Source of the DNA: Flavobacteriales bacterium
GTDB lineage: Bacteria; Bacteroidota; Bacteroidia; Flavobacteriales_D; Sanyastnellaceae
Assembly (NCBI GenBank): GCA_947448135.1
Contig: CANFLZ010000013.1
Span: 1-52,774 of the forward strand
DNA length: 52,774 nt
Direction of reading: 5' to 3'
A program made the translations under genes and the position numbers. The notes under the pieces were generated by a model that saw only the letters and a list, made by a program, of their open reading frames with translations, did no database searches and had not been told where the DNA came from. Within the stretch, counting starts at the first letter, position 1. Each line of letters starts with the position of its first letter. Positions 4,251 through 13,846 of the stretch are shown piece after piece.

Positions 4251-5435
4251 TTATATTTTAGGAATGTTGAAGGAGAAGCTAGTGCCTTTTCCTAATTCTG
4301 ATTTCACAACTATTTTACCACCAAGGGCGTGCACAACCTTTTTAACTGTTGCCAAACCCAATCCATGTCCTTTTTCACCAAATCGATCTTTGCTAGCGTG
4401 CACTACAAAAGGTTCAAAAATTTTCTCATGAAGGTTTTGCGGAATTCCAGGTCCGTTGTCTTGAATGTCAAATAGATAATTGTCGTTATTTTCGGAGATA
4501 AGCACCTTAATTTCTGGGTTCGTTTTATCATTGTATTTTATAGCATTGGAAACCAGGTTCATCAAAACTTGTTCAATAAGCGTATGATGCGTGCGAATCC
4601 CAGAAACATTGGACTGGAAGACAATTGAAGTTCCCTCAGGGATGGTCAATAAATTCAGCAGTGTGGATTCTAAATCATTTGATTTGAAGACGGAAAATGC
4701 TTGACTTATTTCTGCGTAATTTTTACTATAATCCAAAAGACCATTCACCAAACTTCTTAGTTTTTTCGATGAATAAAGGATAGAGTGAATGATTTTCTTT
4801 CCATCTACGTCATTTTTTTCAATGTGCTCTTTGATAAATAATTCAGCGAGCATGCTGATATTGTTCAAAGGAGCTTTTAGGTCATGCGCGGCGACAGATG
4901 CAAATCGAGTAAGTATTTTGTTTCGTTCTTCCAATTCAATTTTGCTTTTTCGGAGTTCCAATAGCTGCGTTATTTGACCGGTTAACGCACGCAAACAATT
5001 GATTTGTGACGCTGATAATTCTCTCGGTTTATTATCAATGACACAAAGAGTTCCTAGTGCATGCCCATTGGCTGAGATTAGCGGGATTCCGCCATAAAAT
5101 ACAATATTCGGATCTCCTTCTACAAGTGGGTTATCATGAAACCGGGCATCCTTTCGAGCATCTTCGACCAACATAATTTCGCTGGGATTCGTGATGGCAT
5201 GGCCGCAAAATGAAATGTCTCTTGGGGTGCTGTCAATATCAATCCCAACTTTGGATTTGAACCATTGGTTTTGATCATCGATTAATGAGATGAGCGCAAT
5301 GGGAGTTTGGCATATTTCTGAAGCAATTGCTGTTAAATCATCATATTCCTTTTCAGGCAACGAATGCAATATCTGGTAAGAGTACAAAGATGCTAGTCTT
5401 TGCTCTTCATTTTCGGGCCTTTGGGGGTTTTGCAT
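4251..5435 (-). CDS. GAF-domain sensor histidine kinase, cytoplasmic
   Basis: The 394-residue protein has no membrane segment. Residues ~20-160 form a GAF sensor domain of the kind that starts with LASLYSYQILHSLPEKEYDD and contains SFCGHAI and GTLCVID. A short coiled linker leads to the HisKA phosphoacceptor box (VAAHDLKAPLNNI, His near residue 180). The HATPase_c domain follows with N box LMNLVSNAIKYND, G1 DNGPGIP and G2 GHGLGLATVKKVVHALGG. No response regulator or receiver domain is nearby, so it is an orphan kinase whose partner is elsewhere. The ligand cannot be read from the sequence. It is in the same orientation as the nuo operon, 90 bp downstream of the small membrane ORF, and could be read through from it. 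Confidence 0.9.
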   Translation of the reverse strand: MQNPQRPENEEQRLASLYSYQILHSLPEKEYDDLTAIASEICQTPIALISLIDDQNQWFKSKVGIDIDSTPRDISFCGHAITNPSEIMLVEDARKDARFHDNPLVEGDPNIVFYGGIPLISANGHALGTLCVIDNKPRELSASQINCLRALTGQITQLLELRKSKIELEERNKILTRFASVAAHDLKAPLNNISMLAELFIKEHIEKNDVDGKKIIHSILYSSKKLRSLVNGLLDYSKNYAEISQAFSVFKSNDLESTLLNLLTIPEGTSIVFQSNVSGIRTHHTLIEQVLMNLVSNAIKYNDKTNPEIKVLISENNDNYLFDIQDNGPGIPQNLHEKIFEPFVVHASKDRFGEKGHGLGLATVKKVVHALGGKIVVKSELGKGTSFSFNIPKI

Positions 5436-5525: not shown

Positions 5526-5687
5526 TTAGTTCAAAATCAACCAATACAAAATAATCCACAGGATAGAAAAAATAAAGCCCCATTGTAATAGGGCTTTGGC
5601 TTGTATCAAATCTTTTTTAATCCAACGGAAATAAATCCATGCCATTGTCCAAGCGACAAAGAAAGCGATGGGTAAATAAATTCTCAT
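5526..5687 (-). CDS. Small two-helix membrane protein translationally coupled to nuoN
   Basis: This 53-codon ORF begins with an ATG that shares one base with the nuoN stop (TAATG at 5685-5689), the arrangement used elsewhere in this operon (nuoB/nuoC). The product has a hydrophobic helix at residues ~3-20 (IYLPIAFFVAWTMAWIYF), a short basic/polar stretch (RWIKKDLIQAK) and a second helix at ~35-52 (WGFIFSILWIILYWLIL). That is a clean hairpin topology. I recognise no family. It may be an accessory or assembly subunit of complex I or an unrelated membrane peptide. The coupling, two clean helices and the absence of any other frame here argue that it is real. Confidence 0.6.
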   Translation of the reverse strand: MRIYLPIAFFVAWTMAWIYFRWIKKDLIQAKALLQWGFIFSILWIILYWLILN

Positions 5688-7030
5688 TAAATGAAAGCGC
5701 TGAATGCAAATAATGTAAGGAGCGCAATAGCACCTAAAATGGGGTATAATTTGCCATTCTCAGTGTAGGAAGCGCCATTTTCACTTTTGCCATACATGAC
5801 AAAAATAACCTTCAAATAATAATACATCCCAACAACAGATGTGAGCACCATAATAATGGTTAACCAAGTATAATGCCCCATCAATCCACTAATGATGTAG
5901 TATTTTCCAAAGAAGCCTGCCAAAGGAGGAATACCCGCCATGGAGAGCAACGCGATGGTCATCATGGCAGCGGAGAAAGGAGATTTTTTAGCCAATCCTT
6001 CAAAGGCGTGCAATTCCTCTCCAATTTGTGAACCTACATTTTGCATTATAGTGAATGCAATCAAAGATGCAATTCCGTATCCGAGTATGTAAAACATCAA
6101 GGCTTGAGAAGCAAACCCTGGAATCAGCAATGTAGATAAAAGGAAACCGGCATGAGAAATCCCAGAAAACGCCAACATTCTTTTTACGTTGTGCTGTAAG
6201 GTTGCCATTCCATTGGCGATGATCAACGTTAAGGTTACCATGATGGCAATTATACCAGCGAATGTGGACATAGCTCCTTCAAAAGCGCCAGCAAATAGTC
6301 TGAACATACCGATAATGGCAGCTCCTTTTACTACTGTAGCCATCCACCCCGTAATTGGCGTTGGAGCACCTTGATATACATCGGGTGCCCAAAAGTGAAA
6401 TGGCGCAGCACTGATTTTAAAAGCAAATCCTACTAACATCATTACCAATCCAACCATGATCCATGGGTGGGTGTTCTGGGTAGCCATGAAGTGATGAATG
6501 GTGTACAAGTCGAAACTGGCTGTTGCTCCATATATCAATGCAATACCAAATAGCAAAATTGAAGAAGCAACTGACCCCAACAAGAAATATTTAAAACCTG
6601 ATTCGTTCGACAATTGGTCACCTCGCTTACTCGCTGCTAAAACATACAATGGAATGGATAAAATTTCAATGGCCAAGAACAACATCACCAAATTGGTGAA
6701 ATTGGTCATCAACAAAGCCCCACAAAAGCTGAAAGCTATCAACGCGTAAAGGTCTGATGAGTTACCTGTTGCTTGAATGTTTTTATGCTGGGTTACCAAC
6801 CAAAAGGCAGCGAGAATCGTTAATATGGAAATACCTTTTAAGGCAAACGCATCCATGCTGATCATGTTTTGATTCATGATGTTTTCAGCCAAACCCCATT
6901 GAATGGCTGTTCCAGCCAAAATGGCCATGAATGAAATCAGCATCAACGGCATCATCCAAGAACGCAACTTGAAAATTTCAAGTGCCAACAAAGCCACACC
7001 TAGCAAAGCAGAAATTAATAGAATAATCAT
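5687..7030 (-). CDS. nuoN: NADH-quinone oxidoreductase subunit N
   Basis: NuoN is one of three antiporter-like proton-pumping subunits of complex I in the inner membrane. The 447-residue protein is almost wholly hydrophobic with about 14 predicted helices. The family core AAPFHFWAPDVYQGAPTP (near residue 215) followed by a conserved Lys (TVVKGAA) is visible, as is the HNVKRMLAFSGISHAG block. Length is normal. It is the last of the 14 nuo genes, 10 bp after nuoM, and its stop overlaps the start of a 53-residue membrane ORF. Confidence 0.96.
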   Translation of the reverse strand: MIILLISALLGVALLALEIFKLRSWMMPLMLISFMAILAGTAIQWGLAENIMNQNMISMDAFALKGISILTILAAFWLVTQHKNIQATGNSSDLYALIAFSFCGALLMTNFTNLVMLFLAIEILSIPLYVLAASKRGDQLSNESGFKYFLLGSVASSILLFGIALIYGATASFDLYTIHHFMATQNTHPWIMVGLVMMLVGFAFKISAAPFHFWAPDVYQGAPTPITGWMATVVKGAAIIGMFRLFAGAFEGAMSTFAGIIAIMVTLTLIIANGMATLQHNVKRMLAFSGISHAGFLLSTLLIPGFASQALMFYILGYGIASLIAFTIMQNVGSQIGEELHAFEGLAKKSPFSAAMMTIALLSMAGIPPLAGFFGKYYIISGLMGHYTWLTIIMVLTSVVGMYYYLKVIFVMYGKSENGASYTENGKLYPILGAIALLTLFAFSAFI

Positions 7031-12808: not shown

Positions 12809-13846
12809 TTATTTGCTTTCGTTGTTAGGATCTAATGCTCCATGTCCCAAAGTCACCTTTTCTCCGTGAGGCAAGGCTGCTTTTTGACGATCGATGGAAG
12901 CTTTTAGCGCTTTTAAACTATTGTAGTGATTGGCAGAAATAACAGAATGACGGCTGATTTGTGAAGGGCCATCAATCACCCAATCGGAGGTGTTCTTTTT
13001 GTCGAAACGGCAAGTATTGCAAATCCATCCGGTTTTTCCATCATGGTCTGCAACCTCTCCCCATTGGTCTTTGCGGGCAGTGACGCGCAATACGTCATCT
13101 CCTTTGTACCAAAGACGAACATGTCCGCAGCACTTATCACAATCGCGGTGTGCGTCTACTGGTTTGGTAAACCAAACACGACTTTGGAAACGGAATGTCT
13201 TATCGGTCAATGCGCCTACTGGACAAACATCAATGACATTTCCTGAGAAATCGTTGTTGATGGATTTCTCGATATACGTAGATATCTCGGCTACTTCACC
13301 TCGATTTAGCACGCCATGAACACGACAGTCCGTTACTTGATCCGCAGTTTTTACGCAACGGTAGCATAAAATACAACGGTTCATGTGAAGTTGTATTTTA
13401 TCACCAATATCTTTTTTCTCAAATTCGCGACGTGGAAAATCATAGCGAGTTTCGCTCTTTCCATGTTCGTAACCCAAGTCTTGCAAATGACATTCACCAG
13501 CTTGATCGCAAACGGGGCAATCCAATGGGTGATTGACCAAAAGAAACTCAACAACTCCCGCTCGGGCTTCTTGAATTTCCGCAGAGGTGTTGTTTTCAAC
13601 CACCATCCCATCCATGACTTGCGTTCTGCAAGAGGCCACGGGCTTGGGCATCGGGCGAGGATCTTTTTCGGACCCTTGTGAAACTTTCACCAAACAAGTT
13701 CTGCAATAACCACCACTAGTTTTTAATTTAGAATAATAACACATGGTGGGAGGTGCTACCTCGGGACCAATCATTCTGGCAGCTTCCAAAATGGTGGTGC
13801 CATTGGGCACTTCTATCGTAATTCCGTCTATCGTAACTTTAGGCAT
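12809..13846 (-). CDS. nuoG: NADH-quinone oxidoreductase subunit G, short form lacking the large C-terminal domain
   Basis: NuoG carries the N1b, N4 and N5 clusters linking NuoF to NuoI. This product is only 345 residues, against about 800-900 in the E. coli type. The N-terminal 2Fe-2S ligands (CYYSKLKTSGGYCRTC), the His/Cys ligands of N5 (HPLDCPVCDQAGECHLQD) and the 4Fe-4S set (CILCYRCVK, then CPVGALTDK) are all there. The protein continues into the 4Fe-4S start of the molybdopterin-oxidoreductase-like domain (CDKCCGH and GWICNTCRF) and then stops with a short tail. The stop is clean and nuoH begins 3 bp later, so this is a natural short form and not a frameshift: I recall similar lengths in other flavobacteria but could not check. 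Confidence 0.94.
   Translation of the reverse strand: MPKVTIDGITIEVPNGTTILEAARMIGPEVAPPTMCYYSKLKTSGGYCRTCLVKVSQGSEKDPRPMPKPVASCRTQVMDGMVVENNTSAEIQEARAGVVEFLLVNHPLDCPVCDQAGECHLQDLGYEHGKSETRYDFPRREFEKKDIGDKIQLHMNRCILCYRCVKTADQVTDCRVHGVLNRGEVAEISTYIEKSINNDFSGNVIDVCPVGALTDKTFRFQSRVWFTKPVDAHRDCDKCCGHVRLWYKGDDVLRVTARKDQWGEVADHDGKTGWICNTCRFDKKNTSDWVIDGPSQISRHSVISANHYNSLKALKASIDRQKAALPHGEKVTLGHGALDPNNESK

Follow-up and report, generated by a model that had tools for sequence, protein, structure and literature searches.

CydX is a single-helix protein tied to cydAB, and the HIG1 domain proteins (HIGD1/Rcf1; PF04588) are two-helix hairpins with a basic loop. The small protein described here resembles both in part. 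Like the CydX/YbgT-type oxidase subunits, it is tiny, predicted to lie in the membrane and encoded close behind a respiratory operon, but it is a two-helix hairpin and the neighbours of its gene change from genus to genus. With the HIG1 proteins it shares the hairpin, the basic loop and a similar size, but not the sequence: HIG1 was matched by one of 31 members of the family with an E-value of 0.079, i.e., at the level of chance, and no PDB match was found by sequence or by fold. Two further likenesses are provided by homologues. CcmD of Bacteroidota (PF20077, CcmD_alt) is also a small membrane protein of a ccm operon, and the hairpin of genome G609 is encoded directly after it, but the two are then present side by side and the neighbour matches PF20077 at 3.8e-24; of the 39 families that match the 31 members weakly, 25 were listed, and PF20077 is not one of these. 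Lastly, class A beta-lactamases with an N-terminal membrane anchor (PF13354) are the fourth case: in one genus (g33) the hairpin forms the N-terminus of one of these enzymes, whereas it is found alone in the window, as in the loci read elsewhere than in g33 and one contig of G323.

The window, i.e., the whole stretch of DNA analysed, has 52,774 nucleotides and comes from a Flavobacteriales genome (G000). The hairpin ORF occupies 5526-5687 of the minus strand (162 nt, ATG at 5687-5685, stop TAA at 5528-5526) and its product of 53 residues is MRIYLPIAFFVAWTMAWIYFRWIKKDLIQAKALLQWGFIFSILWIILYWLILN. Its upstream neighbour (5687-7030, minus strand, 447 aa) is NuoN according to TIGR01770 (E 3.5e-102; 342.8 bits for a cut-off of 332.6), and the stop of nuoN and the ATG of the hairpin have one base in common. 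The order of the same-strand ORFs up to 18409 looks like that of a full nuo operon, the profile check having been made for NuoN only. The ORF in the place of nuoG (12809-13846, minus strand) has only 345 aa, which we take to be short for a NuoG, and the remaining operon looks complete. On the other side, a gene of 394 aa (4251-5435, minus strand) starts 90 nt past the hairpin stop; from its sequence it is presumably a GAF-type sensor histidine kinase.

The ORF is more than a product of chance because the closest of the relatives that have a nuoN match (G003) holds a 63% identical copy at the equivalent place (52 aa, 4 nt after nuoN), because a family detectable by profile extends across Bacteroidia and because dN/dS is 0.20. 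This last value (NG86, pair G000/G003) is rough, dS being 1.6, i.e., near saturation. The NuoN proteins of the same two genomes are 82% identical, and dN/dS of their nuoN is 0.05 (YN00). For 16 other pairs of homologues, dN/dS ranges from 0.00 to 0.28 (NG86). Only 8 of the 17 hairpin pairs yielded a value with YN00: 0.12-0.36 in seven of them and 1.17 in one (dS 0.08). NG86 and YN00 together show purifying selection on the hairpin.

An earlier note on this DNA had claimed a real small ORF tight behind nuoN, giving no strand, and had proposed dN/dS as a check. The claim is confirmed on the minus strand, with a ratio well below 1, and the ORF is, from the comparison of sequences, a real gene for a predicted membrane hairpin of 53 residues. 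The added remark that such a gene would be missed by gene-length cut-offs is doubtful: common gene callers have a minimum of 90 nt, less than the 162 nt found here.

A terminator-like stem of 10 pairs followed by a T-run is located inside the ORF (5574-5597, minus strand), some 90 nt downstream of nuoN. The nuo transcript may end there, or the structure may be due to chance; in the 1.8-kb region, four terminator-like stems were found for a mean of 1.3 in shuffles. This stem is what favours an open frame arisen by chance in a terminator or in untranslated 3' sequence. Such an origin is barely credible in view of the protein of G003 and its dN/dS, of the conservation across the whole family and of the equivalent place in G003, where no such stem is visible by eye.

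When 40 relatives were searched with the single sequence, the one strong match was that of G003 and the others were weak. Among the latter, the matches with E 0.02-0.1 in three genomes of the same genus (G001, G002, G004) proved genuine by position and alignment, being hairpins of 53 aa; the remaining weak matches were left unused. Profiles were built stepwise (A1, A3, A4, A5). The window protein matches the A5 profile at 7.4e-16, a value to be read with the fact that G000 is itself row 1 of A5. At the family level, 24 of 114 genomes have a match at E<=0.1, which is weak except in ten of them (E<=2.2e-13). At the order level, matches at E<=0.01 were obtained in 57 of 399 genomes, the best E being above 1e-3 in 17 of these; G013 and G248 are clear with A5, and most of the other weak ones resemble chance fragments. 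The class-level and phylum-level searches gave 20 of 395 and 16 of 395 genomes, respectively, at E<=1e-3; among the latter one match is weak (G559) and one lies beyond the class (G907). The hairpin is present in 22 of the 86 genomes of genus g27. It is in single copy in 39 of 41 carriers (matches at E<=1e-7). The window ORF thus belongs to a family of predicted two-helix membrane hairpins of 52-56 aa, widespread in the class Bacteroidia and found once outside it.

The libraries Pfam, NCBIfam and PHROGs contain no convincing match for 31 members, the best E per member being about 0.003 in each library. The family most shared among those listed, Bax1-I (6 of 31 members, best E 0.0068), was set aside as hydrophobic noise. 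Among PDB sequences nothing was found by the family profile, and among PDB folds nothing matches the AlphaFold2 model. The family is apparently undescribed, as far as literature listings and the openings of abstracts go, which hold nothing describing it. It is a new family among the conserved small membrane proteins, a kind already known, and adds to those of a major phylum one that nothing in Pfam, NCBIfam, PHROGs or the PDB sequences matches convincingly.

AlphaFold2 (two sequences) predicts two helices in the window protein, residues 4-23 and 27-52, with a mean pLDDT of 84 and a pTM of 0.52. Helix 1 corresponds to 5619-5678 and is also indicated by conservation. The basic loop region (residues 23-32, IKKDLIQAKA, 5592-5621), defined by the sequence and the counts of Lys plus Arg, extends into the ends of the two predicted helices. 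Helix 2 (5532-5609) holds the positions at which the family is most conserved, i.e., F40, W44 and Y48 in the numbering of the window protein; all three features are on the minus strand. The hairpin with a basic turn that the earlier note had described is supported.

Conservation was calculated for 60 members (effective number 39); G702 was left out of this table and of the tree and kept in the charge table of 61 members. In family columns, W45 of helix 2 is found in all members and F41 in 95%, and column 20 is always Tyr, Phe or Trp. Column 49 is aromatic in 91%, columns 25 and 26 are Lys or Arg in 85 and 92%, respectively, and columns 14 and 17 are aromatic in 81 and 82%. The window protein has Tyr at column 20, F41, W45, Y49 and two Lys at 25-26. 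Its column 17 is Ala, for Trp or Tyr in 82% of the weight of the family, and its Trp is located one column later. Over 61 members, residues 22-36 contain a mean of 3.84 Lys plus Arg, vs. 0.74 for residues 1-6.

Genus g33 has the hairpin as the N-terminus of a longer protein (342-343 aa), which continues in frame as a class A beta-lactamase (PF13354; E 2e-36 for locus L074). The four fusion proteins (L074, L081 and L058 of g33; L082 of G323) have the motifs SxxK, SDN, KTG and NExxM, and no Met is found between the hairpin and residue 104. In two sister genomes within g33 (G046, G047) the hairpin is alone. The fusion of G323 stands beside a second, genus-typical copy and is closely like the fusions of g33; its contig may be misbinned. 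Class A beta-lactamases work outside the cytoplasm, and therefore the C-terminus of the hairpin would be outside, i.e., an Nout/Cout topology with the basic loop inside. The concentration of Lys and Arg in the loop agrees with the positive-inside rule and leads to the same orientation. It can be inferred with good support, from this charge bias and from natural fusions to putative enzymes (one genus and one contig of G323), that the hairpin would insert Nout/Cout with its K/R-rich loop in the cytoplasm. The fusions are in this sense a ready-made prediction of topology.

The earlier note had seen in the protein a possible extra subunit or assembly factor of complex I and had proposed to look for the ORF after nuoN in other genomes. 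A total of 59 nuoN loci were fetched (29 in the family and the best 30 from a set of 80 genomes), of which 57 are distinct, G016 and G024 having been fetched twice. The hairpin is within 1.5 kb of nuoN in two of the 57 distinct loci, i.e., those of G000 and G003; four loci have less than 400 nt of downstream sequence. The synteny thus fails beyond one close relative, and with homologues beside unrelated genes the claim is unsupported.

The occurrence of complex I was compared with that of the hairpin in the chosen set of 80 genomes, made of 40 thought positive and 40 thought negative; after the A5 search (positive meaning E<=1e-7) these became 41 carriers and 39 non-carriers. NuoN (E<=1e-70) is found in 37 of the 41 carriers and in 19 of the 39 others (Fisher p 6e-5, kinship ignored). 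By genus, the values are 19 of 21 with hairpin and 15 of 34 without (p 6e-4, kinship again ignored). Such a bias is not observed for CcoN (29 of 41 vs. 27 of 39). It should be noted that G032, negative for NuoN at 1e-70, has a partial NuoN at 2.2e-65; when it is counted, 19 of 39 becomes 20 of 39. Conversely, four of the 41 carriers (G178, G283, G305, G308) have no NuoN at E<=1e-70; G283, G305 and G308 were scored at this stricter limit only and may likewise hold a weaker NuoN.

Within genus g27 no association is observed: NuoN (E<=1e-60) is found in 16 of 22 carriers and 42 of 64 others (Fisher p 0.61, kinship ignored), or in 13 of 15 vs. 24 of 35 (p 0.29) when the genomes at least 90% complete are considered. 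Six of the 22 carriers are without NuoN at this limit, two of them (G178, G290) being at least 90% complete. The carriers without a NuoN match include genomes of good quality, i.e., G178 and G290 (limit 1e-60) and G283 and G308 (limit 1e-70). Some peculiarities of the NuoN matches can be mentioned here. In the window's family, a NuoN match at E<=1e-60 is present in only 28 of the 114 genomes. Two nuoN loci (C83, C117) are found in G002, one of them sharing sequence with that of G004, perhaps by contamination. In g27, two NuoN-like matches have one in-frame TAA (G277 C44:12806-14134 and G330 C21:17284-18612), and an intact copy is present in G330 as well.

If the hairpin were a supernumerary subunit or an assembly factor of complex I, it would pack against NuoN or at another site of the membrane arm, and other species would encode it off the operon. 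The base in common with the nuoN stop in G000, the gap of 4 nt in G003 and the co-occurrence over the 80 genomes, to which CcoN gives no parallel, favour such a function, but the hairpin is near nuoN in so few loci, is carried by the four genomes without NuoN at the stricter limit, shows no association within g27 and is missing from many genomes with complex I (the 19 of 39 non-carriers) that we consider this role quite improbable. The phylogeny would explain the co-occurrence as well as a functional link does. In our reading of the sequence comparisons, the hairpin and complex I would mark the same lineages and complex I would not be required. The hairpin is probably not made specially for complex I because its family is widespread and found beside many unrelated genes.

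These genes were named from one representative per block, the other members of a block being assigned by sequence likeness. The hairpin is after nuoN in G000 (-1 nt, i.e., the shared base) and G003 (+4 nt) only. It is directly after rpoD (sigma-70) in G001, G002 and G004, and also after rpoD in G046, where the end of rpoD was determined by eye. Nine genomes of g27 have it after obg-pap2-crcB with gaps of 2-3 nt (named on G170; CrcB at 2e-22, just under its cut-off). It follows the gene of a 3-dmu-9_3-mt protein with one base in common (-1) in G147, G162, G188 and G248, a di-haem peroxidase gene with a gap of 2 nt in G186, and an AIRS/ThiL-like gene with a gap of 1-2 nt in G1036, G945 and G1005. 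Other upstream genes are those of RecQ (G736, G697), trxB (G624), dnaE (G323) and Ppx/GppA (G305). The hairpin is between nadA and mnmG in G637 and also adjoins mnmG in G612 and G702. In G609 it is between CcmD_alt (gap +4) and CcmE in the ccm operon, and one copy is located 180 nt after a catalase. Some copies are far from any upstream gene of the same strand, e.g., those of G283, G178 and G013, and many others are close behind one.

The neighbours were compared all against all in 40 stretches, clusters present in three or more being considered. Apart from local blocks, no fixed arrangement across distant genera was seen in these 40 stretches. The largest cross-genus cluster (six stretches) is made of long TPR/signalling proteins, i.e., TPR-histidine kinases, TPR-SpoIIE, 7TM-SpoIIE and plain TPR proteins. 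Such proteins, which are common ones, are near the hairpin in L193, L194, L195, L199 and L216, and a kinase-like gene follows the window hairpin too. This cluster was rejected as a partner, its proteins being of differing kinds, sides and strands. The hairpin tree has too few columns for deep forks, and copies in like settings tend to group in it. The nuoN-linked and rpoD-linked copies of the window's genus are separated on weak forks in the free tree, and a single clade is not rejected (AU test, p 0.169). The placements seem to be inherited within lineages and to change between them.

A general helper of respiratory or haem enzymes, comparable to the mitochondrial HIG1/Rcf1 hairpins and with placements reflecting its role, would agree with the two-helix hairpin and its basic loop, and with the copies after nuoN, after the di-haem peroxidase gene, between ccmD and ccmE and 180 nt after a catalase. 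We hold it rather unlikely: most of the named placements are unrelated (rpoD, crcB, recQ, dnaE, Ppx/GppA, nadA/mnmG, AIRS/ThiL-like), the match to HIG1 is at chance level and CcoN is not associated. A bolder version can be proposed by analogy with HIG1/Rcf1, in which a roaming respiratory-membrane helper of Bacteroidota would bind complex I or another redox complex while being tied to no operon; it would have been re-seated behind nuoN, the di-haem peroxidase gene, ccmD and others genus by genus, and the co-occurrence with NuoN would then be a real functional signal. Taken as a whole, this version is unlikely.

We prefer, with a probability of roughly 0.5, the reading that the hairpin is a small membrane protein that stands alone and has a partner of its own. 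Expression, and not the partner, would be supplied by the gene upstream, here nuoN, because the hairpin gene is often close behind an unrelated expressed gene. The protein might act alone, the aromatic residues of both helices (F14/W17/Y20 and F41/W45/Y49 in family columns) packing against the hairpin itself or against a larger inner-membrane protein, and the basic loop might sit at the cytoplasmic surface, as in known small membrane modulators. Several observations count against this reading: (i) the association with NuoN over the 80 genomes, unless it is phylogenetic; (ii) three tight placements (nuoN, di-haem peroxidase, ccm operon) that are respiratory or haem-related; (iii) the patchy distribution, e.g., in g27, which could also fit a dispensable or selfish element; (iv) the copies far from any upstream gene of the same strand; (v) the Trp of the window protein, one column away from W17 of the family. 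The case is also a warning: the base in common with the stop of a complex-subunit gene pointed to a function for which the family as a whole gives no support.

The third observation leads to a small hydrophobic toxin, or the gene of another dispensable, mobile element. The protein is tiny and hydrophobic, its loci differ in related species, it is present in 22 of 86 genomes of one genus, and a close pair of copies with stops occurs in G952. This pair (C1; L224 and L231) consists of two hairpin copies about 1.5 kb apart, both with in-frame stops and with open pieces of only 38 residues, and looks like a decaying duplication. Purifying selection, the conserved interior residues, the single copy in nearly all carriers, the many copies beside housekeeping genes and the fusion to an enzyme, which suggests use as a membrane anchor, all speak against such an element, and we regard it as highly improbable. 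No relative was found in plasmid records (query, the G194 protein) or in phage records and viral contigs (query, the window protein), these searches reaching close relatives only. With a conserved protein and neighbours that change, the family plainly raises the question of how tiny genes for membrane proteins are moved and why they are retained.

Three minor observations concern single loci. The place after rpoD is occupied in G000 and G003 by a DUF6150-type protein with YESQ repeats instead of the hairpin (L108 2445-2780 and L107 2398-2781, on the reverse complement of each locus); the L108 protein was assigned by PF19647 at 1.9e-24 and that of L107 by likeness. G051 has two hairpin copies, one of which runs off its contig. 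In G002 and G004, the rpoD-linked hairpin is followed by an ORF of 145 aa that looks like a phage-type lysozyme (L004 431-868 and L010 1038-1475, respectively).
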